From assembly GCA_028622995.1 (NCBI GenBank), contig JAJQJQ010000024.1:806001-870000 (forward strand): 64,000 nt of DNA, in the 5' to 3' direction. Shown here one piece after another: positions 1 to 24,554 of the stretch; within the stretch, counting starts at the first letter, position 1; every line of letters begins with the position of its first letter. Origin of the DNA: Panagrolaimus kolymaensis (taxonomy: Eukaryota > Nematoda > Chromadorea > Rhabditida > Panagrolaimidae). The notes under the pieces are model-generated. The model made no database searches, was not told where the DNA came from, and saw only the letters and a program-made list of their open reading frames with translations. The position numbers and the translations under genes are program-made.

Positions 1-815
1 TTGCGCTTCTAATTACCATTATTTCTTTAACATATTCGAAAAGCAAAGGGTTTGACGCGGCTCATAAAGTTGAAAATCGATTAATGTTTCAAACGGTTTT
101 GGGTTCAACAATGATTATTCTTTTTGCGGCTTCTCAATGGCTCGCAGTGGATTTTTATCGAAGAAAAAATAGTTTACAGTTTGTTCAATTCAGTGGAATT
201 TCACAGTTTTTAAGCGCATTTTATTATTATCCAATTATTTTTGTACTCTTTTTTGCGAGGTTTGTACTTTTTTTTTTTGGGGGAAATTAAAGATTATAAA
301 AAAAATCAACTTCAACATTTCATCCAGTTTTATTTCCCAAAAAATTGTTTTTTTCGACAATTTAAAATATGTTATGCAGTTTTAAAGATATAAATTTTCC
401 TGTCTTTCCAGCAACAACGAATCCAACAGTTTTAAAGCTTTTTTTAATCGCGATTCAGTTTAACTTTTGAAAGCTATTGTTTTTCCTTTTTACGAACTAC
501 AGTGTTTTTATAAAACTCTATAATTATTTCATTTACGACAGTTTTCTTTTCAAAAAAAAATCTTTTTACTTCCGATTAAAATTCAAATCAGTTATTGATT
601 CTAAAAATTTCTTATCCAATATAAAATTATTTTCATTTTTAACAGTTTTCAAAATTATCGCCTCCGTTGTTAAATAAAATTATCAGTTTTATTTTTTTAG
701 CCCAATATTTCGAAACAACTTTATTCGATTTTATCATCTCAATTATTTCTTTGGTCCACGTCCAGTTAGAGTCAGCCAAAATTCATTTGGAAACAAAATA
801 ACTATAATGCCATAA
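1..815 (+). CDS. Srg-superfamily serpentine chemoreceptor, 3' part only (cut by window start)
   Basis: Two exons are visible: reading frame open from base 3 to 259 and 701-815, joined by a phase-2 intron (donor GTTTGT at 260, acceptor TTTTTTAG ending at 700), stop TAA 813-815. The frame is open to the window edge, so the start and the first five or so membrane helices lie outside. What remains is an ILF-rich helix, the last helix ending in YYYPIIFVLFFAR, and a basic 38-codon tail beginning PIFRN. The tail and intron position match the two complete receptors downstream, which places it in the same family. Such receptors act as G-protein-coupled chemosensors in sensory neurons. CAGTT motifs lie in both exon and intron. 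Family placement rests on comparison with its neighbours. Confidence 0.75.
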
Positions 816-2027
816 AATTAAATTATAAGTATCAGTTTTATGTTTAAAAAATAATGTGAATAAATGGACTTTGAAGTCTTGGTTTTTGTTTGAAATGTAC
901 ATTTACATATGTTGTTTTACAAATTGAAAAAATGTTAATATGTAAAATATTAAGATGCGCGTTATTGAAATTGAACCCAGTTTTAAAAAAATACACCATT
1001 TTAAATTATGCCCTAATTGTTTTTTTCACCTCGTTTATAAAAATATGAAGCAGTTTTATAAAAATTTAAATGATAAATAAAATATCAAAAAAACATAGAT
1101 AAACAGTTTTATACGTTTTTCTATTCAAAATTTTTTTACATCTCATTATTCCATCCAAGTTTCTTGTAAAAATAAAAATATTATTTTTTGTGCTTGAATT
1201 GTTTTAGCGGATTAAAATGGATGAGAGAATTAAAAAAGTTCTAAAAATTTTAACTTTTTTAAAACCCTCCAATTACGACGAACATGGGCAGTTTTATTCC
1301 TAATTTTTTTTTATTAAAAGTGTTTTTTGAAGAAAGAAAAATAATTCTGAGAACATGAATTAAATTAAATCTAAGCAAAAATTCTTTCTGCCAGTTAACT
1401 GAAAAAATAAAGATCATGTAAAAAATAAATTTGATTTATAAAATTTGATTATTATCACCAAAGAAACCAGGAGACCGTTTATTTCCTTTTTCTTCTTCTA
1501 AATACGTGGTCTTACGCTTTAACTAAACGAAGGAAGAAAGTTAATAAATTATTGATACACAAATTGACAGTTTTTAAACCACAAAAATCAAAAAAAGATT
1601 TCAGTTTAATAAAAAATAAAAAAAAATGAAAAATCATTAAGAAATCCAAATATTCCAAAGTGTGTTTTATTCTATATAAAAAATATTGGACAGTTATAAT
1701 TTTATTTAAATATTTTTTTGTTGTACATTTGAACTTAAAATTTTTTGTTGATCAAAATGGAATAATCAAATTTAAAAAAAAACTCCATAATAATAATGAA
1801 AACTCAGTTATCTTAAAAATTTAATGTGGCTTCGATGGCAGTTATTATTTGTCACTCATTTCACAAAGTAATTTATTCAATTTTATTAAATAACAATTTT
1901 TTAACCATTTTTTTCTATGAAAATAAAATTGTCATACTTTTTTTCTTCACTTCTGTGTGGCACTGGGCTAACAAAAAAGACCAGAACTCTTGTTATTCAG
2001 TTTTTTTAATTTTTTTAATAAAAAGTA
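816..2027 (+). other. Intergenic stretch, CAGTT array
   Basis: No gene seen. The sequence is A/T-rich and carries about a dozen CAGTT motifs, all on the + strand (for example near 832, 979, 1050, 1105, 1289, 1567, 1602, 1691, 1999). A short open frame at 1826-2074 looks like chance and overlaps the next gene. Confidence 0.7.
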
Positions 2028-3831
2028 ATGCACGATATTGCTTGCACGATTTGTGTTTTTTCTTCTGCGGATGATGATAATTACACAAAATTTCAAAATC
2101 GTAGCTACAATGGATCAGCGCCATCCTCCATAGGAGAAAATAGTCCAATAACAGATTTAATTGCTGGAGCTTTAGTAAATATAAGTTTCATTTATATGAT
2201 TTTTATAACAATTTTTTTATTTGCTGAATTATTTATTCGAGGTGGAAAAAATAATAAACTTCGAACAAGTTATTATATTTTAATTTTTGTTGGAACAATA
2301 ACATATTTAATTATGATAATTATGTGGAATTTATCTTTTATTACTTTTATTGCAAGTTGGACTATGAAGAGACAATTAATGATTAATTTAATTTTGAGTA
2401 CCATGGCAAGATGGTATTATTCATTTGAAATGGGAATATGGAATTTATTTTTATCTCTTAATCGAGCATCGGCACTTATATTCCCAGTTAACTATGATCG
2501 ATTTTGGAGGAAAAAACTTTTGATTCTTTATATTGGAATTATTTTATTTTATCCTTTTATCGTGGATGGTTGGACTCTTTTTGATGATTGCCGATGGAAA
2601 GTATATAGTCGAAGTTGTAAAGATTTTCGACTCAGAGATCAATGGTTTGCAGCTTCATTGACTTCCATCAAAGCCATTCTTTCTTTGGGTATAACAATTT
2701 TTGCGCTTTGGCGTGCACGAAAACGTGGCTCATTAGCTTCGAGCAAAATTGAAACGCGACTCACAATTCAAACTTTAAGCGCCTCCATTTTATTGATCGC
2801 ATTTTCCATTTCTGAATTAATTGCAGTTTCATATTATTATTCGGATGAAATGGAATTGTATTATTTGTTCAACAGTTTATCAGATTTATTTTATTCAATT
2901 TATTATTATCCCGTGATTGTTATTTTATTTCTTGTTTGGTAAGTTTTTTTTCTTCTCGAAAATACAAAGTCAAATGTTTCCTCATTTTTTAATCAAAACA
3001 AAAAATATGCTTTGATAGAGATTTAAATTAAAAATCAACAAACATTATATCGCATCGACACAGTTTTTTTTTAATAAAATTTTTTAAAAATGTAAATAAT
3101 TTTTTTTTCATTGGAAAAGCAGATAAAATTTTTCTTAATTAATTTTAAAGTATTCATAAAAATCAGTTTTGTTTTCCCTAAATTTTGAACCTTTGCAAAT
3201 TTTTTTTGAAATGCAATAATATTGCTTGGTCTCATAATTCCTTACTGTAGAAGGCTAAACAAATTGATCCCAGTTAAAATAATTAAAAATTAAAAATAAA
3301 TTGGAAATAACTATTTTTTTTCATTTAATGTTTAACATTGCCAAAAACAAATTAAGTTAATCTTTAGTTTTATTTTGTTCTTTTAAATCATAAATTTAAT
3401 TAATAAAGTTCAATAAGTCCAACTTTTCAATGTTGTGCAAATCAAAAGCTCCAGTTTTTTTCTCCTAATTTCGCCAAAATCAAATAATGTAAAAGCATGA
3501 ATCAGTTTTTTTTTGGTTCTTGAGTCATAAAACCATTTAGCAAAGTTAAAAAAAAACCATTTATTCAACCGCCTATGACTAAAGCCTACAGTTTTTTATC
3601 TTCCAAAATTTGAACTTTTACTTTTACTCATCTGCCCCAAAAAAAGAAATGGGAAACACTACCTATAAATTACTGATTTAATAAAATTTCAGCCCAACAT
3701 TTCGTTCAAAATTATTTGAATTTTATATTCCCAAATGCTTCCGACGTACATCAAAAAATACACATCGATCAACCAAAGTCATTCATACCCAAACTATTAC
3801 CGCAGTTCTTGCCCCGACTAAAATTTCTTAA
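2028..3831 (+). CDS. Srg-superfamily serpentine chemoreceptor (7TM)
   Basis: Exons 2028-2938 and 3693-3831 join in phase 2 (donor GTAAGT, acceptor TTTCAG) to give 349 residues, usual for this superfamily. The N-terminus has two N-glycosylation sequons (NRS, NGS) and no clear signal peptide, then seven hydrophobic segments. The LNR-x-SALIFP-x-x-Y-x-x-FW stretch after helix 3 corresponds to the DRY-like region of Srg/Srv/Srx receptors, and GSLASSKIETRL precedes helix 6. The protein ends in a basic cytoplasmic tail. Role inferred: G-protein-coupled chemosensation. It is the second of three tandem paralogues in one orientation, consistent with local duplication. The start could lie a little downstream; I used the first in-frame ATG. 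Assigning it to Srg rather than Srv is uncertain. Confidence 0.85.
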
Positions 3832-4764
3832 ATTTGTTTTTATTTAATTATTTTTTTCTTTTTATTTTAATCATGCATTTAACTTACATAATTTAGATTC
3901 TTAGGAAATGAAATATTAGTTTATAAATATTATTAAATCATGTCGCATGTCAGTTAAAATTAAATTATGATTATAAAATTAAAATTAAATTATGATTATA
4001 AAATTAAAATTAATTGATTTTATTAAAATCTAGCCACTTTTACGTAATTCAGTTTAAAATTTTCTTGAAAATACAAAAAAGAATGCCGAAAATGGAAATA
4101 TTCGTCAAACAGTTTTAAGAATAAGAATTATTAATTTATGATGTTTCTTTTCAGTTAAAACTTAAATTTATAGTCGTCTGCCATTGAAATTATGTCAAAA
4201 AAATTTTTGATTTCAAAAGATTTAATAAAATTTTGAAGAATGAATTTTTTTTATTCAGTTTATTTTTTAATTGAACATAAACAGGACTATGACATGTTCA
4301 CTCAGTTTTTATCTATGAAAAAAATTGAATAGTTTTAATTTAAATTAAAAAGTTAGAAAAACTTAAAGAACTTCAAAACAGTTTTAAATTTTTTTATTAG
4401 CAAAAAAGAAAAGCTTAAAATATTTCTTTAATATCTTAAATTGTGCATCGAAAATTCAGTTTTTCTAACTTTCATTTTTCAAATCAGTTTTCAACGGAAT
4501 CCAGTTTTTCTTCAATATTAAAAGCTTTTTTCAGTCGCAATCTTCAGTTTTGTATCTTTTTTTTTGTTTTTCTAAAAAAACACATTTGCATGAAATATAT
4601 TTACTTATTTTTTCTTTAAAAAATATACCTCCTATCCCAGTTTATTTCATAGTTTTTAAAACAAAATTTTACCCAACAGCAAAGTTTGAAAACGTTTTGC
4701 ACATAATTATAAACAACATTGAATCAGATTCAAACACCTAAAAACAATAATTTTGACATTTTTT
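3832..4764 (+). other. Intergenic stretch with short tandem repeat and CAGTT motifs
   Basis: No gene seen. A two-copy A/T-rich direct repeat of about 29 bp lies near 3953-4015. CAGTT motifs on the + strand continue through the stretch, the last near 4638. Confidence 0.6.
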
Positions 4765-6243
4765 ATTTAATACCTTGACAAGAACATTGGGGCCTTACCT
4801 GCGGTAAGTCCCTCAAACTAAACAAATAATCACACAAAGAAAATTTACGAAACCGTTACATTTTTACAATCACAACGTGGACATTGGGTTCTTTTAGGTA
4901 GTTTTTTAGTACCCTAAAGAGTGCACAATGTACCTGTTTTTAGGAATTAAAATTAAAAAATAAAGAGAGGAGTACATTGTTTTTCAAATAAAAAATGCAG
5001 TGCTTAAATACCCATGTGTGTCTACAACAATACAATACAATTAAATTAAACAACAGGTTCCTCACGTTCACATTATATTTTCATGTTAAATTTTGGAGCC
5101 CTGCCTAACGGCAGACCTCCTAAATTTACAAAACAAATCATCTCCAATAATTAATGGGTTTTTCGGTCCATGCATTTCCATATCTCTCATATTCAGCTAC
5201 ATCTTAACCCCTTCGAGGTCCATTACATACGCCAAATTACATATGGGCCCTTCGAGCCGCAAAACCCAATTCGACCCAAAAACCGCCAAATAACAACCCA
5301 AACACCATCAAATATTAACTCAAAGACAACAAAAAACCATTAAATATCCACCAAACTATCCACCCAAACATCATCAAGCATCCACATAGTATATATTTTG
5401 TTACAATAACAATAAACAACAGGGCCCTTTGGTTAAACATTCCATTTTCATGGTTAATTTTGGGGCCCTGCCTTCGGCAGACCCTCAAAATTTACGATAT
5501 AAATCGTCTCAAATTATCAACGGTTTCTTCGGGCCCCGCATTCCATACATCATTAAATATCAACCCGAAAACAACATCAAACATCCCACCAAAAACCATC
5601 TTACATCTCACCAAAAACAACTAAATCTTCACTCGAAAACCATCTTACATCTCACCAAAAACAACTAAATCTCCACCCGAAAACCATCTTACATCTCACC
5701 AAAAATAACTAAACATACACCCAAAAACCATCTTACATCTCACCAAAAATAACTAAATCTCCACCTAAACATCCCACCTAAAATAACTAAACATTCACCC
5801 AAAAACCATCTTACATCTCACCAAAAATAACTAAATCTCCACCTAAACATCCCACCTAAAATAACTAAACATTCACCCAAAAACCATCTTACATCTCACC
5901 AAAAATAACTAAATCTCCACCCAAAAAAACTAAATATTAACCCAAACACAATCAAATATCCTACCAAAAACAACTATGCAGACAATCAGAGAAAAACAAA
6001 TTTTTCACTTCCAAAAATGCAACAGAAAAAACACAAAGGGAAACTTTCGTGTCAAGAAAATTTCAAAAAATGCAAATTTAAATTGGTCAAAACATGGACA
6101 TATTTGACTCTCCGAAGCGTGAGACTAACATATTCGGAATCAGCGTAAAAAACTGATCTAGACTATCGGGACAAAATAAAAACAAAGCAGAACCGACATA
6201 CAAACAAACAGACACGACACTCCAAATTAATTTAATACCTTGA
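4765..6243. mobile_element. Repeat-rich insertion flanked by 14-bp direct repeats
   Basis: The 14-mer ATTTAATACCTTGA occurs at 4765-4778 and again at 6230-6243, as expected of a target-site duplication around a 1.45-kb insert. Unlike the DNA on both sides, the insert has no CAGTT motif and a different, C-rich composition. It contains a two-copy repeat (about 5030-5200 and 5400-5560) with a GC-rich TGCC/GGCA mini-hairpin, a related hairpin near 4790, and the 44/78-bp minisatellite. No transposase frame is seen, so any element would be non-autonomous. Direct repeats of 14 bp are longer than those of most common families, so the class is open and the repeats could be coincidental. Confidence 0.5.
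5596..5960 (+). repeat. Minisatellite with 44-bp and 78-bp periods
   Basis: The core CCATCTTACATCTCACC starts at 5596, 5640, 5684, 5728, 5806 and 5884, so the period is exactly 44 bp three times and then 78 bp twice. The longer unit contains an additional A/C-rich block ending in CATTCACCC. Copies differ by few bases, which suggests recent expansion and unit fusion. Confidence 0.85.
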
Positions 6244-6811
6244 TAAACACCTTACGACAGTTTTATGTTTTTTCTCCCATATCCCTCACTTTCTGGTGCC
6301 ACCAGTTATAAAATTTCAAATGAAATAACATTTCAACCTTTTCAATTGTACAGTTTTTAATATATTAACAAATTTTTTATAGCACCCATCATAAAAAATA
6401 ATACATATATCCCTTTAACAGCAATAGCTATAAATCTTTCTGTTTTACATTTATCCAGTTTTGAATATTATAAAATAAACTAAAGCCAACCAAAGCAGTT
6501 TTCCATATACATATTGTAAAAAAAAAAAGTTTTTATAACCACAAAAGGCCGGCAGTGTTATGTTGTTGTAATTTACAATCATCTATGTCGTCCTTGTTTT
6601 ACACAGTTTTATTTTTAAAAAAACCAAGTAAAATAATGGAATAATTTTCACTTAAAAATTCTTTTCCAAAACAATATTTCTGTTTTATTTAAAAAAGGTA
6701 TTTGTAAATTATTAATTAAATAAAATTTAAGTTTTAAAAAAATTACCACTTAGAAAACAGTTTAATAATCTCCGAAAAAGTTTCTGTTTATTTTGTTTCA
6801 GTTTTAAAAAA

Positions 6812-8148
6812 ATGAACTTCAGCGAATCAACATTTTTTCCAAGAATTTGTTATTATCATTCTTTGCCCGTCGTCCATATTCTAACTCGAATTTTACTTGA
6901 TTCATGCTTTTTTTCAATGTTACTAATGACGATATTTTTATTTTTTGAATTTTTCTCTTCAAAAAGCCAACTTCGAACAAGTTATTTTGTTATTGTTTTT
7001 TATGCTTCAGCTTTGTATGTTTTAACTTTGATTTCATGGAAACTTTTTTCTAAATTTGGTCCAAATGAAAAACAAGCTGAAGTTCAAAGCATTCGACAAT
7101 GGTATTATTCATTTGAAATAGGATGTTGGAATAGTTTTGTTGCATTTAATCGAATGTCAATGTTAATATTTCCACAAAAATATGAAATAATTTGGAGTAA
7201 AAAATTAACTTTTTTATATTTAATTTTCATTAGTTTATATCCATTTATAATTGATTTTTCTTCGTTGAATGAAACGCTAAACACAAACTTTCGGCGACCC
7301 GCGGGAATTCCTTTCATTTTACTTTCTCAACGAAAAGCCGCGTTTTCTACCGTAATCCATACCTTCCTTTCATTGGTTATGATTATTACTGCAATTTTTA
7401 TTACTCGAAAACGTGGCTCTCTTGCAGCCAGCAAAGTTGAAATTCGTTTAATGTCACAAACAATTTTTGGTTCAACAATATTAATTTTATTTTCCATCGC
7501 TCAAATTATTTCATTGTATTTTGATGGAGATGCCAAAACGCTATATTTTATTTTAAATGGTTCATCCGATTTATTTTTTGCTTTTTATTATTATCCAATC
7601 ATTTGTGTTTTATTGATTGCAAGGTTTGTAAAAAGGCGAAAAAACAGCCACAAAATTGTTCACAGTTTAAAATTAATATTTAATTTTTTCTTTTTCTTAT
7701 ATTTTTGATTTTTTGGGAAATTTTTTTTGTTAATTTTCTTGGTAACAGTTTATAACTTTTTGTGCCATCATTCAAAAATCTAGACAGTTTTTATTTTTGA
7801 AAGGAAAGCTTAATTTTGGAGCTATAAAAAGCAAAGAAAAAAGGATTGTTTGCAGTTAAAAAACAAAAATTCAATCAAAGCATTCAGTTTGTCAACTTTA
7901 AAAAATAGCTCTTTCATTTATAATGCAGTTATAATTAATGTTGAGCCTATTATAACCTGTGTACCCAGTTTAATAAAAATATGATACAAAAGATCAAAAC
8001 AGTCATCAGTTTAAAAATGTTTTTATTTTTCAGCCCCGAATTTCGTAAACGATTTTGTTATTTTTATTTTTTACGATTCTTTCCTCAAAGAACAACTACA
8101 GTTACATATATTCATTCACAAGCTAATGGAACGACAGTTGCCAAGTAA
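6812..8148 (+). CDS. Srg-superfamily serpentine chemoreceptor (7TM)
   Basis: Exons 6812-7623 and 8034-8148 join in phase 2 (donor GTTTGT, acceptor TTTCAG) to give 308 residues. The first ATG follows a TTTCAG 11 bp upstream, which could be a trans-splice acceptor. Seven hydrophobic segments are visible. FNRMSMLIFPQKYEIIW follows helix 3 and GSLAASKVEIRL precedes helix 6; both match the other two receptors. The 38-codon tail starting PEFRKRF has the same length as in the partial gene at 1-815, so the 3' exon is conserved in size and phase. It is shorter at the N-terminus than the gene at 2028. Inferred role: chemosensory GPCR. Confidence 0.85.
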
Positions 8149-10672
8149 TTCGTTTACATCAGTTAATACATAATTTTCAGTTTTTTTTATGTTTCAGTCA
8201 AATATTATTTTGTTCTCGCCAAAAAAGGCATAATAATGGTCGAATATTTAATCGAACTTAAATTATGGATAAACTCTTCCAAAATGGATGAAAAGAACGC
8301 AAACGCAGTTTATAATGAAAAATTTAAAAAATGATTGCAGTAATTTTTTAAAATTAAAATTTAAAGTTAATATGATTCAGTGAAAAAAAACTCCGTTATT
8401 ATTGTTCAACAGTTTTAATAGGCCATGGCTCAATATTCCGATTTGTTCATTATATTGCAGTTTTTTATTAAAAAAAAATTCCCAAAACCCATTCACGTTA
8501 TAATTTTTTTTTATTTCAAAAATAAACACGTTTACCCAACTTTACTGAATCACACACATGCTAAGTTTTTTTTAATGAAAACAAACAAGAATGAAATGAA
8601 ATTTACCCAACATTTTTTTTGCGTAAAAAAATTTAATCCTTTTTTTGGGTTCATTTTTTTTCAACTTTTTATTTTTTTAGTTGATGCATGCACACATGCG
8701 TGTGTTTTTCTTTTAACATTAAAAATTCAACAAGTCCTGACTTCTTTTTTTTTGTTTCCTGAAGAAAAAGGGAAGGAGAAAAAAATAAAATGAAATGAAT
8801 CGATTCAAACAAAAAAAATTGTGATTCAAGAGCTTTTTATATTATTTTTTACGCTATTGTTTTTTTTTCTTTTGCTTTTTAAAAACAATCATAAAAAGTT
8901 TTTGGAATCGTTTTGTAAAACTTTTTATTTTTCAAACGTGCTAAACATCAGTTATTTTTCATTAAAAGCTTTTTTCTTATATTTTCTAGTATTTTGTGGG
9001 TGGATGGTTATTGAAAAACGAAAACACTTCACACAGTTTTTTCTCTTTTCTAATGGAATATTTTTTGCAATTTAAAAATATAATTGAACTAAAGATTGCA
9101 AACTATTTTTTGTAATCAACAGTTTATTTTAAAAATTAGTTTCAACCTTAAAGAACAATAGTCTTAAGTTTCCCTCCTTATGTTTCCTTTAATTACGACC
9201 TACACCAGTTTTTTATTAACATAAAATAAAGGAAATTATTTTTTTTGAATTTTAACATTATCAGATTCAAATTCAGTTTTATATATCATAAAAAAATAAT
9301 ATTTAAAATATCTGTTCATTTTTTGTTAACTTCTTTCGTAGAAAAAACACAAAATTACCGAAAATTTCAAAGTTTTAAAATAAAATCTTTTTGAATAAAA
9401 TTTTTCAAAAATTCTGTACATTTTTTCTTTTTGTGTTTTATTCCGATGCAGTTTTTTTTAAATTTTACTCTTTATAATTTTACAGAAGATGACAGTTTTT
9501 TTATACTAAAACCTTTCTTTTTTTACTAAACATATTGGATTCCTTGCTTGCCCGCCAACATCATCTTTTTATTTTTTTTATTAACAGCTGTTTGTTCGGA
9601 AATAAGAAAAAAGAAAAGAAAAATAGTTGCTCATTTTTTTGTTGCTGCTGCTGCATCGCTATCGCCGTTGGTTGGAGAAGTGATTGCTGCAATCAAAAAA
9701 GCCAATGCAAAAAGCAAGAAAAAGAAAAAGCAGATTTAAAGTTTAAACCTTTGTAAAGCCAACCGCCGCCTGTTTTCTTTATGCTGCCTATTTTTTTTTA
9801 TGTTGTTGGGGGATAAAAGAAAAGAAGACAACAAAAATAAAAAAGAAGCTTTTAAGTCGTCAGTTGAATGAAAAGCGAGAGCTAAGATAAAGAAAAAAAA
9901 AGAAAAAAAAAAGCTATTTTTGAGTGGGTGGTCGCCGTAGTTGTTGATTGCCATTGTTTTGTTATTTGTCTTTTAATTCCTGTGGATTTGTTGATTAAAT
10001 TTTAGTTTTTTACCTTCGTATATATTATTATACAGTTTAATTTTTTTTTTATTATAAAATTCTTGAGTTTAATCTTTTTTGATTAAAAGGTTAACCTTTA
10101 CTAAAACAGTATTTTTTATTTGGTAATATGATTTTTTTAATCCCACCCTTACTAAAAAACAGTTTTAACCAAAATGATAAAAAAAAGGTTTTTTAAAGAT
10201 TGGAAAAAGTTGTAACATAGCTTTAAGAATCCAGTTATCTTTGAAGAAATTGTATCATCATTCAATTGTATTTTTAATGGACAGTTTTTATCCAAATAAT
10301 CATAAAGCACCCGATCGCCAGTTTTATTTATATTAAAAATTTCCACTAGTTGTATCTTGACTCAGTTTTTTATAACTTTCTTTTTATGGTATGCTTTGTG
10401 AAGGAGTGTTGAAATGAATTTCGCTCCATTATTTTTCTGACAATCTTTTTTTTAAATTTATACTATTTCTAATATATAAAAAATACCACAGTTAAATGTT
10501 TTTTACAGTTTTTTTAAAATAAATTTTTTAGCTTTCCAACGAACTTTTTATCTCTTTATTTTACGAATCATTTTCGTTCCGTTACTCGAGATCAACGTTA
10601 CTTTTTTTCCGCGACGTTTTCATCATGATCAGTTTAAATAATTTAATTTTATAGCTTTTTTGTTTATTCATC
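8149..10672 (+). other. Intergenic stretch, CAGTT array in two parts
   Basis: No supported gene. CAGTT motifs run to about 9500 and resume near 10030. Between them, 9540-9960 is purine-rich and motif-free. Open frames at 8425-9075 and 9535-9954 are low-complexity, rich in Phe/Lys codons, and lack splice or family support. Confidence 0.6.
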
Positions 10673-11780
10673 ATGGCTCAATATGTTCCATGGTATTTTA
10701 AACGATCTTGCCCTATTTTTTGTTGGCCCTGCGTTCCCATATATACTGGAATTTGGCCGGGTCGAAAATTCCTATTAATTTTAGGAGCAGTTTTATTTGC
10801 AATTGGTGTCATGATGCTTTTGGGACTTTTGTTGATTTGTATTGCCGTGGAATGTTCCGCAGTTGCAAGTCCTCTCTTGATTTTTGCTTTCCTCCTTATC
10901 GTTCTTGGGATTTTATTCTTCCATTGTGGTTGGGCTGCGCATTTATTGGATTATGGCGGAAAAATTCCTGAAGAGTAGGTTTTTACCTCTTTTGAGAAAT
11001 AAAAGATTCAATTCAGTTAAAAAATTTATAAAAATGAAAAGTTATTAAGTTAAAAACAAAAAAATATTTTTCGACAGTTTAAAAAAATTAAAAAAAGATT
11101 GCATCGACCGGGAATCGAACCCGGGCCGCCCGCGTGGCAGGCGAGCATTCTACCACTGAACCACCGATGCTTGGAAAAATACGCGCTAAATTTTAAAAGA
11201 CTCTCATAATTCATCCGCCTCGCATTCAGTTAAAAATAATTCAACAAAAAAAAACACGTAAAAAGATGGATGGGAAAAATGAACACAAAAGAAAAATTTA
11301 TCTCAGTTTTATAAAGGCCAGATCGTGATCCCAGTTTAAAAATATTATATTTAGAAAAAGGAATTTTAATTTAAAAAAATACTCAATCTTTTAAAAATGG
11401 TCACAAAAAATAATAATCAAAATGGCCAACACATTTTTTGAACTTCAACCCCATCGTTCTCAGTTAATTTTTTTCCTAAATTATTTTTTTAGTGAAACCA
11501 CAATTGGTAAAAGCAAAAAAGTTACCCGCTTTGAAGACAATAACGATGCTCCAAAAGAAGAAGAGCCAGTGTTTGAAGAAATTCACGATCAAGAGCAACC
11601 TCCAATTAAATATGGTTTCTGGCAGTTTAATGAACGAGAATCATGGCAAGCTGTAGCTAATCCATATCCAATTCAGTAAGCCCAATTTTTAAAGCATTCA
11701 GTTAAATTAAAATAAATAAATATATATATTTTTTTAGACATTCATTGAAACCCTTCGTCGAGCGTGAACCTTATGTTTAA
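10673..11780 (+). CDS. Small two-pass membrane protein of unknown function
   Basis: Three exons, 10673-10974, 11493-11675 and 11738-11780, join cleanly (both introns phase 2, GTAGGT and GTAAGC donors) to give 175 residues. Residues 1-30 are Cys/Trp/Pro-rich (KRSCPIFCWPCVPIYTG). Two long hydrophobic helices follow at about 33-57 and 63-85, with HCGW just after the second. The rest is a charged, acidic, soluble tail ending ...KPFVEREPYV. I recognise no family. The N-terminal cysteine cluster could be a palmitoylation or metal site (inference). Intron 1 holds a tRNA-Gly gene on the opposite strand. A poly(A) signal AATAAA lies at 11927-11932. Confidence 0.75.
11100..11170 (-). tRNA. tRNA-Gly (GCC)
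   Basis: Read on the - strand, a 71-nt cloverleaf starts GCATCGG and ends in discriminator A. The anticodon loop is CTGCCAC, anticodon GCC, with stem CTCGC/GCGGG. The T arm is CCGGG-TTCGATT-CCCGG. It is followed by an oligo-T Pol III terminator. It lies antisense inside intron 1 of the membrane-protein gene at 10673. Its mature sequence and immediate flanks closely match those of the tRNA at 53473. Confidence 0.97.
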
Positions 11781-14700
11781 ATGTGAAATTTAACCGACTT
11801 CCAAGTCGTCGCCGCAGTTTAAAGCTTTAAAAAGAATTAATAATGAATTTTGTTAAAAATTATTTTATCTGAATTACTTACTGCCATAATTTTTTATTAT
11901 TAATAATTACAACATTTTATGATTTAAATAAAGACTTTTAAAAATATCGCAGTTTTATTTTGTTTTTTTCTATTACTTTATATTCTATTATCAGCAGTTT
12001 TATTTTCTTCTTATTTATGATAAAAATTTAACCTACATCAAAACGCTTATGCAGTTTTTAAACTTTGTTCCCAAACCGTCAGAACAGTTTTTCTAAAATT
12101 TACCCCAAATATTTCGCAAATTTTCTAAGGATGATGCAGTTTTTTTGAAATGCAAATAAAAAAGTAAGTAAGTCAAAAAAAAAATCAATCAATATTACAA
12201 AAAGTACTAACAATAATAATAATGTCAATAAAAAAATTGCAAACAAAAAAAAGAAGTAAAGTATTGAATGATTTTTTTCATTTTCTTTCACAATGGTTAT
12301 TTTCGTTGTTGAAAAAAAGTAAAAGTAAAAAATTTTTTAGTTTAGTCAGAGTGAAAAACGCTTCTTCCTCAATGACTTTTTGTGGTATGAATAAAAAAGT
12401 TTTGGAAAGAGTTTAACTTATTTTTTTGTATGATTTCAAAGCCTTAGAACGATTCATCACTCAGTTTAATACTTTTTTTATGATTTGCTGATTATTTTGA
12501 CTCCAGTTTATATTTCCTTAAAATGTTTTTTACTTTGTTTAAAAAAAGGTATAGGTTAAAATACAGTTTTAATTCGTTTTTCCATTTTTTGTCAGTTTCT
12601 AATTGCTATTTTTTCTGAGCAAGAACCGTTTCAGTTTTTAAAGTTTTCTTCTTCGCAACTACGCGGCTAATTCCTCCAAATTATTATTGTCAAAAAAGAT
12701 TACAGTTTTAATTCAAAGAATGAAACATTATCTAAAATCTTGGGTTAACAAAGAAGTGAAAAAAACTTTAAATTTTTTAATAAATTATGTTGCTCTCCGC
12801 CAAATCAGATGGCAGTTTTAAACTCCTTTAAAAATGAGAAACAATAAATTTCAGTCAATATTTGTTTTTTTAAACAAATTCAAAATCAATTTTTAATTTT
12901 TAATAAAGAGCCATAAAAATTAAACCCTCTCGCTTCCGATCGTTCCAGTAAATATTATTGCTAAAAATTTCTCCATTAAGCCATATTCATCAGTTTTAAA
13001 TTAAGCTTCCACAACTCTCTCACTTTCTCTAATGTTTCAAGAATGTATGTAAGCATAAATAAAAATCACGCGCATCATCCTTCTTTCCTTTTTTTATTTG
13101 TTTTAGTTGTTTTTAAATATAATTTTGTTGACACAAAAATAAGAGAAAGACAAATCACATTTTTATTTAATTTACGTCCGAGCGCAGCAGGTAAATCAAC
13201 AAAAAAAATTTTAAAGGGATTCTTTTCTCACAAACAAAAAGAGAAATCATCAGCAGCGTCTAAATGCTCAAGTTTTTAAGTTTTCAAGTTTAAAAAAATG
13301 TATAATGTTTCCCTTTTTTTTTTAATTGTTGCATTTTTTCAAAGCAATTTTTTGACAGTTTTTCTTTCTTTTTTTTAAGCATGAAAAAAGCCTTGTAAAA
13401 AGAAAGAAGAAAAGAAAAATGCGATTTATGAACAGAAGCTTCCAGAGAGCTCTCTTTTTCCGTCTTGTTTTTTTTGTTGCAAAAAAAATAAATAAAAATA
13501 AATTATGTGTGTTATGAGTGAGCAATTATGCCTTCGCCTACTTACTTACTTATTTAGTACTTAGTACCTTTTCTAGAAAAAATTTTGGGCAATGAAATAA
13601 GTGAGTTAAAACAAAAAAAGCATAGAAAGTTCCATTTGAGTCTTTTTTTATTTATTAATAAATAATTGGTGTTTTTTTGTTGTTTTTTTATGAGTTGGGA
13701 AAAACAAAATCTGACTGTCGTTTTTTTTTTGCTGAGTTCTCTTATCAGTTTTTTTTAAAACATTTTTTAGTGTCGAAAAAAATTAGCGGAAATGGAGTCA
13801 TGAATGATGGCGTAATTATTTAATAAATTTTTTAAAATATAATCGCTAAGTTTGCTTCGCCACAGTTATTTTTAGTTTATGATCTACTCAACATCCAGTT
13901 TGATAATATAGTTAATTTTAAAAAAACCGCGACGTGACAATTTTTTCTCAAACGCAGTTTTTTTAAGTAATTTTTTTCCTTTTTTGAATAGTTTTAAAAT
14001 TTCTTCCTTTACCAATTTTCAAGTAAAAAGTTTATGTGTTATTCGAATAGTCTCTAAAAAGCAGAATAAAATGAATGTTAACAGTTTTAGAAATTTTTCA
14101 ACGAGAAATTTTCGTTTTCTTCAGTTTTATTATTTCCAAAAAAAATTTTTTTTTGTAGAATGTAACAATTGGTTCTTCAGTTTTAAATATGAGTGAAATT
14201 TATGAAAATGTTTTAACTTTAAAAAAATTAGTAGCTTTTTTTTTCATTCTTCTGTGGACTTGAAACAGTTATCAGTTTTTAACAAATTACAATATGGCAT
14301 TTTATTTTATTGAACTTTTCTGTATCAACAAGTCCAGTTTAAAAAAATATATATATAAAAAATAAAGTATTTTAAATTTAATTGCAATAATTTAAATCAA
14401 ACCTTTATTGATGGGTAAAAACATAGACTTTTGAATGAATTCTATTTTTACAGTTTACAGTTTAATTTTTTTAATGATGGACTCAGTTTTAAAAATTTAT
14501 TACTTGAAAAAGAAAAAAAACAGTTAATATTTTGAGTTTATTTTGTTATAAATAATCTCCTCACAGTTTCTCATTCCCCCATTATTTATGATTTCAGGTT
14601 GGACTAAAAAAAGACCAGCTTGCAGTTATTTTTCCAAACATTTTTTCCAAAGGTTTTTCTTCGAACTAGCTTTGTTCGCTTTTTTTCTCTCTCTCACCCC

Positions 14701-17616
14701 AGTCTAGACCTAACTAATTCAGACAACAACAAAATTAATTAAATTTTCCACTTTTTTTTGTTTGGTTTCTTTCACTTTTTTTTCTTTCATTGATTTCGTT
14801 TCAAATCAATGACGTTTTTTTTTGCTTTGCTACTATTTTCTCTTATTTACGATTAAATCATCAATCATTGATTTCATTTTTATTTTTCGTCAGAACATTA
14901 TTGAATCAGATGGGAGAAACCTAAAAAAAAGGATGGAAGTTAATTTATGAAAAATAAAGAAATATACATATTTAGACTGAATTGTTTTTGTAAAAGGTGG
15001 AAGTTGTCGTTGGTTAGCGTGCAAATGATGTTTTGATATTTTGTCTTTCATCTTTCCCTCTCATTTTTTTTCTTCACTTTTTCAAATTTGTTTTGCAAAT
15101 AATTTTTTTGTTGATTTCTGGGGAACAAAAGTGCATTGCACTTTTATTCGCAACACATCACCCTCATCGCCTGCATTTTTTCCCTATTATTTATAATTTT
15201 TGTTTGCTTTAGCAAAATTTTTGTCTCGCCTCCCTTCCATTATTTTTTTCCATATCGTCTCGTCATTCAGTTTTGTAAAAAGACACGAGCAAGCTTGATC
15301 TCGGTTGAAAACTTTTTAGGTTTTCTAACAAACGTCAGTTTATTTTTCTGGTAATATTTTTTTGATGACAAAATATTTGGAAGCCCTTATTAAAAATATA
15401 AAATCTGTTGCAGAGTTTTGTAAAAGTTACTGTAAGTTAAGATTTTTTTAAGTTTAGCTTTATTTATTTTTGTCGTTGAAATGGTTTCTTCCACAGTTTT
15501 AATTTTTTCCATTAGATTTTTTATGGGCCGACGTTGCACGTTAAAATATTTTTTCTTTTGATTTTGATCTTGCAGCGCTGCGCCTTGTAATTCTGCTGCA
15601 TTAAACAGTTTTAAACTTGTGTCTTTTAAAGTTAATCGCCATTACACAGTTAATAAAAAAATATACATAAAAAGTTTCTAAATTTTAACTATGCTTGACA
15701 TTATCCATTTTTTACGTTTAATCATCCTTTAATTTACCTTTGTTTCTCTTATAAAAATTAAAAGATATTCTATCATTGACAGTTTCTTTAAGTTGGTATT
15801 CTATATTATAATAGCAGACGACGTTTCTATCCAGTTTAAAAAGATATTTTATTAGCATGACTAAAGCAGTTTTCAATTTTTCAACCAATGTTTTCGAATA
15901 TTTTAAACCCCAACATGTCCAGACAGTTTTTTTTGATAATTATTGAAATAAAATAAAAAAAGATGTTGATAGCACTCAGTTTAAAAGAAGTTTAACCCAT
16001 TCTTTCTTCCTTTTTCATTCATTTAATTCAGCGTTCGCAGCTGGCATTGCGCATAAAAAAATGCAATGTAATATTTTTGTGTTTTCTCGATTGTTCCAAA
16101 AACTTCTCGGGCGCATCACGCAAAAAGAAAAAAAAAATAAACCATAAAACCGAAGAACCTCAGAACGAAGAAAAAAAAACGACGTCATGTAATATCTTTT
16201 TTCATTTTTAATCGAAACAACAACTCGATTTTTGATTCTTTTTGTTCCCACTACATCGACTGTCACCGCCACCACCTGCCCATATTTTCTTTTTTCTTTT
16301 TTAGTAAATTCCAGAAAACCCGGTATTTTTTAATCTTTATTTTATTTATTTTTTTATGACAGCTTTATGCAATCTTTTTTTCCTGATGAAATATGAATTT
16401 TTTTAATGTTAAAGGTTCATGTCATAAAGTTCACTTTCCTTTGATTTGATCACTTTTGTTCTCCCAGTTTTTTTAGATGTGTTATTGCTTAATAAATGTG
16501 CAATATTTTATTTCAATCGCTTATTTCATTTTTTTATTGCGTGAAAACAATATATTTCAACAATGTAGTTTCGCGGTTTTCTGACTCAAAAATGGTTTTG
16601 AAAATGAATGAATGACGGAACTTGTTTTATTTCTTATTTTCTTGAGGACTTATTTATATTAAAACCACTGATACTACAGTTTTAAAATCTCTCGTGAAAT
16701 TAATATTCGCGAAATTTCATTGTTAAAATCTTTTAAAACGCGGGAGTCCAGTCACTCTTCTAATATTTATTTTTTTAAATTTGTTTCTTGAATTTTTACA
16801 AGATTTTTTTTTTCTATCCTGTTAATTTTCTTTTTTTAATTTGGTTTTGAAATTCTGCTTAACTCGAAATCCCAAAATTCCAGTTTTCCAACCCTATAGA
16901 ACGTCCCATACACCATCTCAGTTTATTTTGTACTGCGTTGGAAAAAAGCTAGTTTCTCGAATTTTTGCAAAAAGGACAACTTTCAATTCAGTTAACTTTA
17001 TTTTTAATTTTAGTTGTGTGATGTTTAATGAAATCATTTTTTTTCAAAATTAAAGTTTTCAAGCCCTTTAAAATCACTACAAAACCCAGTTTATTTTCAA
17101 ATATTTTCAAAATTTTTATAGATTTGATTCTCGTATTTTTTCCATTTGATCCTTATTATTACCACCGCAGTTAAAATATCTAAATTTTTTTTCCCCGACA
17201 TTGTTGCCGCTAGTTTAATTTATTTTTTCTTTGTATTTAAAATACACTTTTTTTAAAATTAGGAATTCAGCAAAAATTAAATTTTCTTAATGAATTCATG
17301 ATTAAAAATCAACTCCAGTTTTTTTCAATGAATTAAATTTTTTAAATTTTGTTTCAAATTTGTTACAAATTTGTTTCATATTTTATTTTAATGCTTCTAT
17401 CTAATATCTTTCCTTTACCAACGCCAGAAAAAAGAAATTCAGTTTTATTTTATTATCCTTTTTAAAACCTTCAGTATCGAGATGATTTTACTAATTCGCG
17501 CAATATTACTTTTTTGAGTTTTCCTCGTTTTTCCCCAGCGAATTTAATTAATTTTTTCTGATTCCATGATTATGACAGTTAATTTTATTTTTTTATAGCT
17601 TTTTTGCTCATAAGGA
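11781..17616 (+). other. Long intergenic stretch with mosaic CAGTT array
   Basis: No supported protein gene in 5.8 kb. Motif-dense islands (about 11810-12140, 12460-12990, 13740-14640, 15260-15990, 16460-17580) alternate with motif-poor A- or T-run DNA. Short frames at 12100-12416, 13043-13525, 15136-15354 and 16015-16275 are low-complexity and unsupported. Confidence 0.6.
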
Positions 17617-18529
17617 ATGTCAAATAGCAATCCACCAATTGATAATTCATCCCCTCAACCATCTGGAAGTAGTTCGCCTGAAACATATCAAACTAAACGA
17701 GTACGAAATAATTTAGCAGTTAAAAAATGTCGAGAAGCTAAAAGGCTTCAAGAAAAAGAAATGCTGGATGCTGTTAATAAACAAAAAGCATTAAATAAAC
17801 AATTGGAAGAGTAAGTTTTTGTATTTTTATTATGCAGTTTAATTTAAATATTTTTGGAGCCGACTGACTTTTACTAACTCAGTTTTCAAAATTTAAAAAT
17901 AAAAATATTTTTTTTATTCAGTTTTTATAACCAAAATTGTTTTATCAGGGTTCGCAACAAACCGACAACTTTGTCGGTTTCAAACCGACAACAAGGGTTA
18001 CTCTCGTCGTCTGACCGGTTAGACGACGAGAGAATCCCATGTTGTCGGTTTGAAACCGACAAAGTTGTCGGTTTGTTGCGAACCCTGTGTTTTATAAATA
18101 TTTTTTCCCGCCAAAAAAGACTATTTTTTTAAATTAAATTTTCTTTCAGAAATTTTTTTTCTTTTTGATCTAATTCAGTTTTTTACTTTCACAAAAACTT
18201 TATTTCAGTTTAAAATTATTCTAAAAAAAATCTCTAAATTCATTTTTAGTGAATACGAAAAAGCTCGAATGGAAGAACAAATGCTTCGGGCGATGTTACC
18301 ATTTTGTACTCAAACTAGGTCGTCGACATCCTCCACCTCGACGACGAGAATTAGTAATAATATTTCCCAAAGCCAAGAAACAAATAATACTAACTCAGAT
18401 TTAAATTTAGATTTGCCGCCGCCCCCGTCGTCGTCTTCACAAAGAAATAATTTGCATGTGACTCTTCCAGGAAATTCTAATAGCCCAAATCATAGTTCTG
18501 CATTTCATCGGCCCAATTTACAAAAATAA
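17617..18529 (+). CDS. bZIP transcription factor, C/EBP-like
   Basis: Exons 17617-17810 and 18250-18529 join in phase 2 (GTAAGT / TTTTTAG) to give 157 residues. Residues 1-26 are Ser/Pro-rich. A basic region follows with the RNNLAVKKCREAKR signature (N-x-x-A-x-x-C/S-R), then a leucine-zipper-like coiled coil that crosses the splice junction. The rest is low-complexity Ser/Thr/Asn with a PPPP run. The NN-x-AV-x-K-x-R pattern fits C/EBP-type basic regions better than AP-1 or CREB. Expected role: dimeric DNA-binding regulator in the nucleus. Intron 1 carries CAGTT motifs and a foldback element, and one motif lies in exon 1 near 17716. Which C/EBP paralogue it is cannot be told from this. Confidence 0.8.
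17946..18087. repeat. 142-bp near-perfect foldback in bZIP intron
   Basis: The element begins CAGGGTTCGC and ends with the reverse complement GCGAACCCTG. The arms are about 67 nt each with three mismatches that I can see, around a short centre (GACCGGTT). It is far more GC-rich than the surrounding intron. Nested inside each arm is a smaller inverted repeat built on CGACAA/TTGTCGG. It is probably a MITE-like or other foldback insertion. The transcript would form a long hairpin. Confidence 0.9.
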
Positions 18530-20934
18530 AAGAACCGAAATTATTTAAAAAAATTTAGTTTAAAAAAATAAGAATAAAATGATCTCAGGAAATTTCTTTT
18601 TTTTTGTTTCTTGTATTTTAAATTTATTGTTTTTGTTATTAATTTTATTTTGAATAAATTTTTTTTCAATGCGAATCGGTATTAATGATAAACAGTTTAA
18701 AAAATTATTTGAGTTAAAAGCCTCTTTAAAAACTTGAGTTTTGTAATTTTATCAATGGATGTGGAATCACAGTTTCAAATTCACAAACAAAAAATATCTC
18801 ACTGTTAAGCAGTTTTTTATGAATTTGGTGTCAATAAAAATTATTGTGCAAATAAATTTTCTTTTTTTCTCTCTTTTCATATCACAACAGAGAAGTATGG
18901 GATTCAGACAGTTTTAAAATCAAATTCTTCTTTATTGAAAAAAATTTAAAAACGTTTATTCTCTCAACAGTTTGTTATTTAAAATATCAATGTTTGTTAA
19001 AATTAGGTAGTTAAAAAAAAATCTATTAAAAAATTTACGATTGATTTGAAAGATATATATAAAATAGAAATACAGTTTTGCAAGATAATTCATATTTTTA
19101 ACGAAATATTTCTTCAGTTTTTTAAAGCTATTAATGCTCTGCTTCCGCACACAGTTATGTGACACTTGATTCTGGAAAATAACATCACTATTTTAAAAAA
19201 ATTCTTACCAGCAAAAAAACATAAACAATTAAATTTCTTTTTAATAAATTTCCACTAAAAAATTTTTTGGACGGTTGTTAGCAGTTTACTTAAATCGAAA
19301 AAATAATTCCCACACAATTCTACAAAAATTACACAATCCCTCCTTTATAACAGTCTTCCAAACGAGGAGTGTACATTTACTGCAGTTTAAAAATTACTTG
19401 ATAAACTAATCAAAACAGAATTAATTTTTTCAAATGAAATAATAAAATTGTTGAAAAAAAAATTCAATGCTTTTCGATAGGGTGAAATATATAATGGTCT
19501 ATCTGTTTCATATTAATGAAGGGCTTGAATGGCCATCGCGAAATCACTAAGAAGGGAAAGATGCCAGTTAAAATATTGTAAAATTAAATTAAAAAACATG
19601 GCTAAAAATCAGACAGTTTAAAATTTTACTTTGTTAATTGAATTTAAATGTATTTGGCCAACAGTTTTTAAAATCCTTCAAAATTAACATACTCCAGTTT
19701 TTTAGTTTTTAATAATTGCAAAATAATTTTAAGTTGAATTTTATCAATAAAAATCCCTAACAAAGTCATGCAGTTTTAATTTAAAAAAAAAATAGCTTTG
19801 AAAATTCTTATCAAAGCATTGGATTTTTGCAATGTATTCAGTTTAAACTTCCTTCATGAATAAATAAAAATGATTTTCATGTATTTTTTTTTAGATTTTG
19901 TAAAATTTCCATCTCGAAGAAAAAAAATGTTACAGTTACTTTTTAAAACTTGGTCGTTAATAAAAATGCAGTTCAGCTTTCCAAGCCTTCTCTCTCTGAC
20001 TTACCAATCACTTTTTTAGTTTTAAATAATACCGCAATCAATAAATAAATAAACAATAATAATAGGAATAACAATAAATAAAAAAGGAATTTGTGTTTGG
20101 TAAAGATAATGCACAAAAAAAAGTTGAGAATTCTAATACACAACTCTTTTGATCCAAGAAATACAGTTTATAATTTGATAAAAGAAAATTAAGGGCTTAT
20201 TTGAATAAAGCTTGAAACAATAATTTGTAAATTAAGTTTTTTTTTAAAGTTTTTTCAAATCGTCTTAGTTAGCTGCAGTTTTTTAAATAATAAATCTTAT
20301 TTAAAGCCTCATCAAGCTTATTTTCTCAATGGCAGTTTTATAATTATAATAAAATAACCACGCTTCTGCTTTCTTTCCATAAAAACAAACCATGCTGATA
20401 TCATGCCATAATTACACATACTAACACCATAATTAAAATATGAATTATGGCATAATTTTTGCAACCGAGAATAAACATGCAATTATTGGCTTAAGTTTAA
20501 TCTTTAAAAACTTTCTTTGTCGTCAGTTTTGTATGGTGGTGACAATAGAAAACTCATATTATTAGATACATATGCATATGCGAGTTAAAAGATGCTATTA
20601 TAACGAATCAAAGTTAACAGCAGAAAAACATTTGGCATCTAAAAATTCTTAGCGGCAATCATGTCATCTTGTTTAATCCACCTGTTTTCGTACATGTGCT
20701 TGAGTTAATGGTTAATCCAAATGATATGTAGCAAAAACCAAGAAACGCAGTTTTTTGTGTAATAAGAAAATAACCCTAGTGTACTTCCAAAGTCTTTGCA
20801 TCATGTGGTCACTTCAGAATTATCATTAAAGAAAGTCATCGAATTCAACAAAAACGTATTTCATAATTACATACTTATTTATTATTACAAAAAGATTAAA
20901 TATAAAACAATTAGATTACAAAATTATTTGAGCA
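18530..20934 (+). other. Intergenic stretch at the right edge of CAGTT block 1
   Basis: No gene seen. Motifs continue to about 20750 and then become rare. A short inverted repeat has arms ATGCCATAATT at 20403-20413 and AATTATGGCAT at 20443-20453. Confidence 0.6.
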
Positions 20935-22312: not shown

Positions 22313-23035
22313 TGTTGCTTAGATTGAATGAACGATGTTGTTGAAAGAAAAAGAAGATTGATAACTTTGAGATGAGTTCGAAAAAAATGCAAACATCGAA
22401 GACAAAAAAATGGGAGGAGGAAATTCACATTACCTTAAATCTATGCAAATTTTTTTTTTGCAGTGACAAAGGCTTTCGCGGTAAAAAATGAAATTTTTTG
22501 GGATGATCATGAAAAAAGCATCCATTTTTGGATTCAAAATAAATAAAAAGCACGTAGTCAAAAGATAATGCTCTGATTGCAGAATAAAAAAATTTTCATA
22601 GGATATTTATTTATCGAAGATTCAACTCTTGCTATTCAAATGGATGTCCTCATTCTTCATTGATATTTTCCCAAGTTTACAACTACAAAGTTTTCTTTTT
22701 ATCAAGATACCTATTCTCCAAACATTTCTAAAACGGCATTTTATTAATATTCCTAGCTTATAATTTTTCTTGGCTATTAAAAAATACATAAATAAACGAG
22801 AAGAATAATATCCTTATCAAACTTCTTAGAAAATAAAACCATCATCATTGGCGGCGGTCAAAGTACTGCATCGTCGTTTTCTTTAACAAAAACAATAAAA
22901 TGCAAAGATTGTTGCAGAAACTTTTTTATTGCTCATAATATTTTTTAATGTGTTTTTTTCTTTATTATTATTGATCGCAATTTTGTTTAAGTTTCCATTG
23001 AGACTTTAAAATTTGTTTTAAACTACGAAGAAAAA
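22313..23035. other. Intergenic stretch between divergent genes
   Basis: No gene or repeat seen. It separates two genes transcribed away from each other, so both promoters should lie here. CAGTT motifs are essentially absent from this point to about 37 kb. Confidence 0.5.
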
Positions 23036-24238: not shown

Positions 24239-24554
24239 TTTGACTCAAAAATTTATAATAAAAAGATTTATGTAGTTGCTTTTATTTTAAAGTAAGACAT
24301 TGCAGCCATAAAAGATGGAAGAATCATGATTCATGAAGCTTGACATTATTGTATTAGAGTCCCATACAAAATTTTAAATGAACGAATGCCAAAGTTGAAA
24401 ATTGTTTTGTTTGTTTCTTTGCAAAAACTTTTATCTTTGCAATGCTTCAATTTTTTATTCAAGTCTAAAAAAATGCAAATTTATGATTCAAGAAGAAAAA
24501 TATGCACAGAAGAATATGCAAATATTTCGACGAAGAAAATGTCATCAAAAACAG

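Follow-up and report, generated by a model that had tools for sequence, protein, structure and literature searches.

Why does the hexamer CAGTTW recur along a single strand of the Panagrolaimus kolymaensis genome, and what are the sequences that adjoin it? The question is raised by a stretch of 64,000 nucleotides (contig JAJQJQ010000024.1, positions 806,001 to 870,000), called the window below, in which the motif was counted on both strands. Block 1 extends on the plus strand from 177 to 20753 and lies between and within genes, including Srg-type chemoreceptor genes (tblastn, Pfam). At window positions 1-20770, CAGTTW was found 170 times on the plus strand and twice on the minus strand, whereas base shuffles of the block led to an expectation of 14.3 (sd 3.5). 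When the sixth base was ignored, the counts were 175 and 2. The dense one-strand array that a preliminary description had claimed for this block is thus real, and the count given there for the first 2000 positions was right as well (22 CAGTT wholly inside, or 23 starts with the last at 1998, and one AACTG).

Block 1 stops near 20753, and the array restarts at 36625 and ends near 51930, again on the plus strand. This second block is split by an insertion, a stretch with two gag-like ORFs that is missing in the homeolog on contig C20. Its first part (36625..45850) accounts for 101 CAGTTW on the plus strand and one on the minus strand within 36001-46000 (6.1 expected from base shuffles), and its second part (49907..51929) for 27 and one within 49901-52200 (1.4 expected from base shuffles). 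In the whole window, both strands taken together, 328 CAGTTW contrast with 88.6 (sd 9.8) in dinucleotide shuffles, and none of 100 shuffles was as high.

Two regions of the window are poor in the motif. The gap at 20771..36000 contains other gene types, i.e., an FAD oxidoreductase and a calcineurin-like phosphoesterase, and has five CAGTTW on each strand (10.0 expected per strand). The flank at 52201..64000, with two tRNA-Gly genes and a FERM-type gene, also has five on each strand (9.3 expected). Because the motif stays below expectation in both regions, the array reflects neither base composition nor noncoding DNA in general. The case considered in the preliminary description, a motif that is even on both strands and present in all noncoding DNA, did not arise in the window, as equal counts were confined to gap and flank and the bias in the arrays was strong. 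Unlike in a satellite or tandem repeat, there is no repeated sequence between the motifs: among 276 bodies (the 18 nt preceding a motif) in the window, one pair shared 15 of 18 letters and none shared more, in line with the earlier statement that the intervening DNA is unique. A compositional or satellite artefact, for which the A/T-rich context and nothing more can be adduced, is refuted by the shuffles, the strand contrast, the unique bodies and the homeolog tests described below, and we give it virtually no weight.

P. kolymaensis is a triploid clade IV nematode, and therefore homeologous copies of the arrays can be compared. The comparison showed that each array motif forms the constant 3' part of a cassette N18-CAGTTW, whose slot consists of the 18 nt immediately preceding CAGTTW. 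For 322 units from three array loci, the ratio of substitutions in body and flank was 1.90 (95% CI 1.72-2.08), and the edges of the fast-changing patch were sharp, at -18/-19 and -1/0 (513 site pairs). Of 278 aligned copies, 244 retained the motif, which placed it second among 154 five-letter words with equal GC, for which the mean was 64%. The unit at 7835..7858 on the plus strand (body 7835-7852, CAGTTA 7853-7858) has seven differences to its C20 homeolog in the body, but none in the 27 bp before it and none in the 20 bp that begin with the motif. The unit at 7948..7971 on the same strand (body 7948-7965, CAGTTT 7966-7971) has eight body differences and none in the motif or the next 14 bp; the 27 bp that precede its body contain three. 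On contig C3, the effect pointed the same way in 8 of 9 pairs from two further arrays; these pairs have sequences in common, and the ninth, at 99.8% identity, is uninformative.

The origin of the fast-changing patch was also analyzed. An intrinsic mutability of the motif was rejected, because CAGTT outside the arrays lacks the patch: 3 of 198 body bases differed, and 3 of 215 when seen from the other copy. All six substitution types were raised about twofold in the body, which argues against one mutational signature. Four-fold sites differed in 72 of 512 cases (14%), about the body rate, and thus the body may simply be unconstrained rather than under positive selection. In addition, the slot has a different composition, with fewer homopolymers and a higher GC content, and units are spaced by less than 24 nt in only 13 of 499 gaps, compared with about 76 expected. 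The sharp 18-bp patch adjoining the motif, the scarcity of close units and the clustering seemingly on one chromosome would also suit an element acting at the DNA level, i.e., an oriented binding protein (a pairing, condensin-type or chromatin factor) that covers CAGTTW plus 18 bp and raises mutation by blocking repair or replication. However, the unbiased substitution spectrum and the different slot composition do not fit this explanation, and the absence of a patch at CAGTT outside the arrays means that the protein would need to act only in arrays, so that we regard a DNA-level element as rather improbable.

The orientation of the units is uniform over blocks of about 20 kb, which autonomous units would not need. 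It is compatible with a block being transcribed into one long RNA from which N18-CAG is cut out, with CAGUUW as the processing signal. Such a precursor would be similar to the unistrand piRNA clusters of flies and mice, which are also long source regions with one direction, but it would be processed in a sequence-directed manner. Clusters of flies and mice carry little or no sequence signal per unit, whereas every unit of the P. kolymaensis arrays carries one. A long precursor is also favored by the comparison with C. elegans, because its 21U loci are described in the available part of PMC3597512 as having no prominent strand bias and no long unidirectional runs, in contrast to the 170 to 2 and 101 to 1 found here. 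Of seven array genes, chosen by eye for conservation between homeologs or for mutual relationship, six run in the direction of the motif, but these are too few for gene orientation to serve as a clue to the strand. A tRNA-Gly gene and a gene judged by eye to be channel-like point the other way, which speaks against a long precursor. Moreover, wrong-strand motifs should be neutral within a long precursor, yet only 4 were seen in the three array stretches, compared with about 22 expected from base shuffles. This argument is weakened by a depletion of CAGTTW outside the arrays (20 versus about 39, both strands summed); with that depletion as the baseline, about 12 wrong-strand motifs are expected, and the avoidance within the arrays is only moderate. 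Taken together, we consider a long precursor unlikely.

Arrays of this type are not confined to the window. Genome-wide, a triple-motif pattern was found 2103/2058 times versus 174/142 times for the reversed control, and a stricter pattern 91/95 times versus 0/0. Among 100 listed of the 186 strict matches, 99 lie in C3 6.9-10.0 Mb, C5 0.6-2.7 Mb, C18 and C20, and among these listed matches the loci are thus clustered in multi-megabase regions, as in C. elegans-type species. The clusters seemingly represent two sides of one chromosome, as genes common to the contigs suggest. Of the clustering on one chromosome that the preliminary description had proposed to check by a genome-wide count, the multi-megabase regions were found among the listed matches, and the single chromosome is tentatively suggested by the shared genes.

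The proposal that CAGTTW is a Ruby-type motif with an RNA starting 35-60 bp downstream had to be abandoned. Neither composition nor divergence showed anything at +30 to +60, where the RNA of a motif located about 35-42 nt upstream on the same strand would lie, and the signal was instead found at -18 to -1. CAGTTW also looks unlikely as the SNAPc site of this genome. In 12 U2 genes, taken from 15 matches in this genome, the conserved promoter element contained CAGTT or AACTG in 0 of 12 cases, and one of the 12 has CAGTT at -13. The element ends in GTTTTG in 10 of 12 cases, which loosely resembles the GTTT of the motif, but position and neighbours are different. A 3' splice site (CAG|) was rejected because no pyrimidine tract precedes the motif, and hairpin precursors were rejected because the mean fold z was +0.13 and +0.12 for the two strands (150 sites). 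At the body edges, no initiator YR or 5'-U preference was visible, and a ten-bp A/T periodicity did not differ clearly between arrays and gaps.

Which effector could use such units? The genome has 143 Piwi-domain matches, and thus many Argonautes, and none of 12 matches inspected by eye was Piwi-like. A search of the genome with no mismatches allowed yielded 0 exact matches to codons for DGVGDGQ, which we take to be the Piwi signature. The evidence leans to an absence of Piwi (PRG-1) from this genome. The clade has been reported to be Piwi-less and without piRNAs (PMC4323106, PMC6436959, as far as their available text goes), and an absence of piRNAs was reported for the relative Panagrellus redivivus (PMC4323106). 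The reported Piwi loss and a cluster layout like that on C. elegans chromosome IV could also indicate decaying remains of an ancestral piRNA cluster that persist by slow decay. However, a relic should show neither a motif that beats all but one of 154 words in homeolog conservation nor a scarcity of wrong-strand copies, and we regard this explanation as very unlikely.

The type I piRNA (21U-RNA) clusters of C. elegans and clade V share several features with the arrays, i.e., thousands of tiny units located in introns and intergenic DNA rich in A/T, an A/T-rich stretch next to the unit, and two multi-megabase clusters (on what is seemingly a single chromosome in P. kolymaensis). Both also combine a conserved signal with a neighbouring sequence that changes rapidly, which for the arrays is seen at the DNA level. 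In contrast, their signal CTGTTTCA lies about 40 nt upstream, whereas CAGTTW abuts a slot on its 5' side, and the clade is reported, and this genome suspected, to be Piwi-less. Other features are shared with the 21-22U RNAs of Strongyloides ratti (PMC9203780). This species also belongs to clade IV with no Piwi reported, and its loci are gathered mainly in two clusters of 1 and 2.7 Mb on a single chromosome scaffold, with an A/T-rich context and same-strand runs. Yet, in the available part of that source, no upstream motif is reported, the loci overlap heavily and they derive partly from transposons, while those of P. kolymaensis are discrete units that are marked by a motif and rarely less than 24 nt apart. 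The earlier view of an array of piRNA-like genes survives with respect to the huge set of tiny, oriented units, clustered among the listed matches, in a clade reported to be piRNA-less, but not with respect to the Ruby-type geometry.

We moderately favor the explanation that the arrays consist of minimal guide-RNA cassettes, N18-CAGTTW, which number thousands in all, occur in clusters and serve a piRNA-like function in this clade IV nematode. Counting against it are the body-like rate of differences at four-fold sites, the missing initiator YR and 5'-U preference, the lack of clear complementarity to the LTR-type element of the window, the lack of an exact Piwi signature, and the absence of piRNAs reported for P. 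redivivus. The slot would be the variable part of an RNA of about 21 nt, and CAGTTW its fixed biogenesis signal. Transcription and its strand we infer from the sequence. Most likely, the strand that is read would be the other one, on which the motif appears as WAACTG and would act as an initiator-like core defining the 5' end of the RNA; transcription would proceed away from the motif, and the product would be a 21-mer 5'-UG-N18-N, bound by an Argonaute of the WAGO/AGO type without the use of Piwi. In a mirror reading that is nearly as good, N18-CAG would be the 21-mer on the plus strand, the start would lie two nt upstream, and the T/A run would serve as a pause or release site. More tentatively, we propose a Piwi-independent, genome-encoded guide-RNA system with roughly ten thousand cassettes or more in each haploid set. 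One end of the RNA would be fixed by the six-letter tag, the neighbouring 18-nt slot would be kept diverse, and the system would have evolved or been rebuilt in a clade believed to be piRNA-less.

The arrays thus have the appearance of piRNA-like guide-RNA genes, although these worms belong to a group believed to have lost the piRNA system. Nematodes of clades III and IV are regarded as piRNA-less, and thousands of motif-marked guide cassettes would, if true, bear on the policing of transposons. They would represent another way of solving the same problem, one that can be read from the genome by itself and is directly testable, and a rare case of small-RNA genes in which the variable part can be delimited to the nucleotide by homeolog comparison. 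Among the open-licence papers listed, no title or abstract opening described the motif or Panagrolaimus small RNAs, and the one promising CAGTTT match turned out to be a FISH probe in the available text of PMC13370393. The LTR-type element in the window was rejected as a target, because bodies had no clear excess of matches over control 18-mers: at least 14 of 18 letters matched for 18 of 519 bodies on one strand (controls 4 and 14 of 519) and for 5 of 519 on the other (controls 10 and 11). This result is tempered by the 21U RNAs of C. elegans, for which a prominent transposon role is likewise denied in the available part of PMC3597512.

The preference for the minus-strand initiator reading follows from the finding of no other strong oriented element than CAGTTW. 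When the ten most one-sided words of each length were listed for the arrays, the strongest all overlapped CAGTT. Among the weaker one-sided words, those without CAGTT were TTTTT (669 to 491) and ATCTC (26 to 5) for block 1, whereas block 2 had AAAAT (158 to 94).

The conserved element of the arrays is the motif CAGTT, and the 18 nt abutting its 5′ side (the body or slot of a unit N18-CAGTTW) change about twice as fast as the DNA on either side. Of 278 array copies of CAGTT that could be aligned between the window and its homeolog on contig C20, 244 were retained. This placed CAGTT second among 154 words of equal GC content with at least 20 copies (mean 64%), after CGATT with 19 of 21. The 18 nt 5′ of the motif contained more differences than either flank. 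Base-corrected ratios of observed to expected substitutions were calculated for 513 site pairs from seven sequence pairs, not all of them independent. With positions counted from CAGTT, the ratios were 1.69 at -18 to -14, 1.45 at -13 to -9, and 2.01 at -8 to -1, and outside the slot they were 1.05 on its 5′ side (-20 and -19) and 0.77 on the 3′ side of the motif (+5 to +9). When each locus contributed a single pair, the body/flank ratio over 322 units was 1.90 (95% CI 1.72–2.08). The body was more divergent than the flanks at 138 sites and less divergent at 77 (ties left out, p = 4e-5).

CAGTT was compared with 66 control words retained in 20 or more copies (mean ratio 0.92). Only AACAG had a higher ratio, and it shares letters with the motif in AACAGTT. 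The effect was repeated in 8 of 9 pairs from two additional arrays, at 7.21 and 9.83 Mb of contig C3, and their copies on C18, C40, C42, and C241; these pairs share sequences, and the ninth is uninformative at 99.8% identity. It depended on the sixth base: it was present for CAGTTT (416 pairs) and CAGTTA (125 pairs) and was not seen at CAGTTG, with only 7 pairs, while CAGTTC (4 pairs, 0.208 versus 0.102) was too rare to judge. Nine of the 15 one-mismatch words had a body/flank ratio below 1. The other six had ratios of 1.2 to 2.1, each from 5 to 17 pairs, and body rates of 0.05–0.11, below the 0.17 of CAGTTW. No slot effect was found at CAGTT outside the arrays, where 3 of 198 body bases differed (11 of 34 sites usable) or, seen from C20, 3 of 215 (12 of 19 usable, largely the same sites).

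Selection and relaxation were weighed against each other with the substitution rates. All six substitution types were raised about twofold in the body. At four-fold degenerate sites, 72 of 512 differed (seven ORFs; another two yielded no aligned sites), and the base-specific rates were similar to those of the body, except for G, which was higher. Therefore, the rate of change in the slot is close to that of synonymous sites and double that of the surrounding noncoding DNA. This evidence is proof of a delimited slot but not of positive selection. A hint of faster change in the body comes from 11 stretches with near-identical flanks, in which 28 of 720 body bases differed versus 22 of 2222, with the bodies unchanged in 5 of the 11.

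Spacing and composition were also analyzed. Only 13 of 499 inter-motif gaps were shorter than 24 nt, versus about 76 expected from a simple exponential; extrapolation of a fit to the long gaps gave a much larger number and was set aside. Gaps were common from 28 nt and peaked at 40–48 nt. Seven control words had no comparable deficit, the lowest being 6 versus 7.9 and 4 versus 5.4. The 24-nt limit equals the length of one unit (18 + 6), which suggests that neighboring units exclude one another. The GC content of the body was 0.29, versus 0.23 and 0.19 on either side, homopolymers were fewer than on either side, and at positions -20 and -19 C was raised and T lowered relative to the surroundings. 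The sum of 18 + 3 gives a 21-mer under either strand reading, a minus-strand WAACTG initiator or a plus-strand N18-CAG.

The striking one-strand array of the preliminary description turned out to be real. In block 1 (1–20770) CAGTTW occurred 170 times on the plus strand and twice on the minus strand, with 14.3 (sd 3.5) expected from base shuffles. The values for block 2 were 101 and 1 at 36001–46000 (expected 6.1) and 27 and 1 at 49901–52200 (expected 1.4). The gap at 20771–36000 and the right flank at 52201–64000 contained five copies on each strand (expected 10.0 per strand and 9.3, respectively). Among the top ten one-sided words of each length in the arrays, the strongest all overlapped the motif; TTTTT, ATCTC, and AAAAT were weaker and do not contain it. 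The motif was found 4 times on the wrong strand of the arrays, versus about 22 expected by shuffling. However, this argument is weakened because the motif is also scarce in the gap and right flank, with 20 copies on both strands versus about 39 expected from base shuffles; with this rarity as baseline, about 12 wrong-strand copies would be expected.

The genome searched comprised 265,843,910 bases in 807 contigs; the assembly is described as triploid, 266 Mb in 856 contigs including 49 mitochondrial ones, with an N50 of 3.82 Mb (PMC10374039). In agreement with triploidy, C20 holds close copies of the window (94% for the two stretches queried) and C5 partial copies (91–95%). Window positions 1–1800 are about 99% identical to C20, other aligned stretches 85–94%, and this mosaic divergence is perhaps due to gene conversion. 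A satellite-like repeat of about 78 bp lies at 5543–5976; in the C20 copy (stretches L020–L026, turned and joined) it is longer, inverted, and at a different place (40753–43282).

Three CAGTTT at gaps of 25–55 were found 2103 times forward and 2058 times reverse genome-wide; reading the pattern backward gave 174 and 142. Among the matches listed, one was on C1 (12.9 Mb), three were on C2, and all others were past 7.06 Mb on C3. With a stricter triple pattern, there were 91 and 95 matches versus 0 and 0 in the control. Of the first 100 of these 186 places, 99 lay in regions of C3 (6.90–10.04 Mb, 31), C5 (0.62–2.68 Mb, 19), C18 (33), and C20 (16). The remaining one, on C8, was judged by eye to be a short repeat; none of the 100 was on C1, C2, C4, C6, C7, C9–C17, or C19, and the other 86 fall further along C20 and on higher-numbered contigs. 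In the C3 and C18 clusters, the strict places form alternating plus and minus runs, so that adjacent blocks switch strand. Shared genes link C5 with C20 and the window's contig C23, C5 with C3 and C11, and C3 with C40 and C18. Therefore, judged from the coordinates, both clusters seem to lie on a single chromosome, one on each side of a motif-poor middle. Scaling the 19 triples per 271 motifs of the window arrays to 3845 net triples genome-wide gives a rough 55,000 units in three haplotypes, or some 18,000 per haploid set, with a counting error alone of about a quarter and an upward bias from dense arrays.

The preliminary description, in which a piRNA-like array was proposed, pointed to the right field. 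The layout supports putative piRNA-like cassette clusters, but the geometry differs and Piwi is probably lacking; therefore, the arrays should not be classified as a piRNA cluster. According to published work, neither Piwi nor piRNAs occur in clade IV nematodes (PMC4323106; PMC6436959). In the genome, 143 Piwi-domain matches were found (249 candidates, 130 scored); the 12 translated were of AGO and WAGO types by eye, and the Piwi signature pattern had no exact match. The main claim rests neither on this test nor on the wrong-strand argument. Ten of the 12 U2 genes (L060–L071) have GTTCATGGTGTGTCNGTTTTG in common at -60 to -40, an element in which CAGTT or AACTG occurred in none of the 12. The 3′ half of this element, GTTTTG, is reminiscent of the Ruby/SNAPc relation that has been reported. 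The nearest precedent found in the clade is the 21–22U RNAs of S. ratti (PMC9203780). The piRNAs of C. briggsae are likewise described as rapidly changing sequences in a conserved architecture (PMC9683057); the corresponding pattern in the arrays is at the DNA level.

Two Srg-type chemoreceptor genes and a related exon lie in block 1. The gap at 20771–36000 encodes a FAD oxidoreductase as well as a calcineurin-like phosphoesterase, and a FERM-type gene is located in the right flank; no gene was recognized in block 2. This alternation in gene content recalls C. elegans, in which regulated, piRNA-rich chromatin is reported to alternate with active, piRNA-free domains (PMC6436959). On the minus strand at 46061–49523, two identical gag-like ORFs of 507 aa with zinc knuckles lie head to tail in a stretch that has few array motifs and is missing in the C20 copy. 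An inverted pair of gene copies, about 88% identical, at 24279–25839 (plus) and 29376–30957 (minus) brackets a phosphatase-like gene and is also inverted on C5 and C20.
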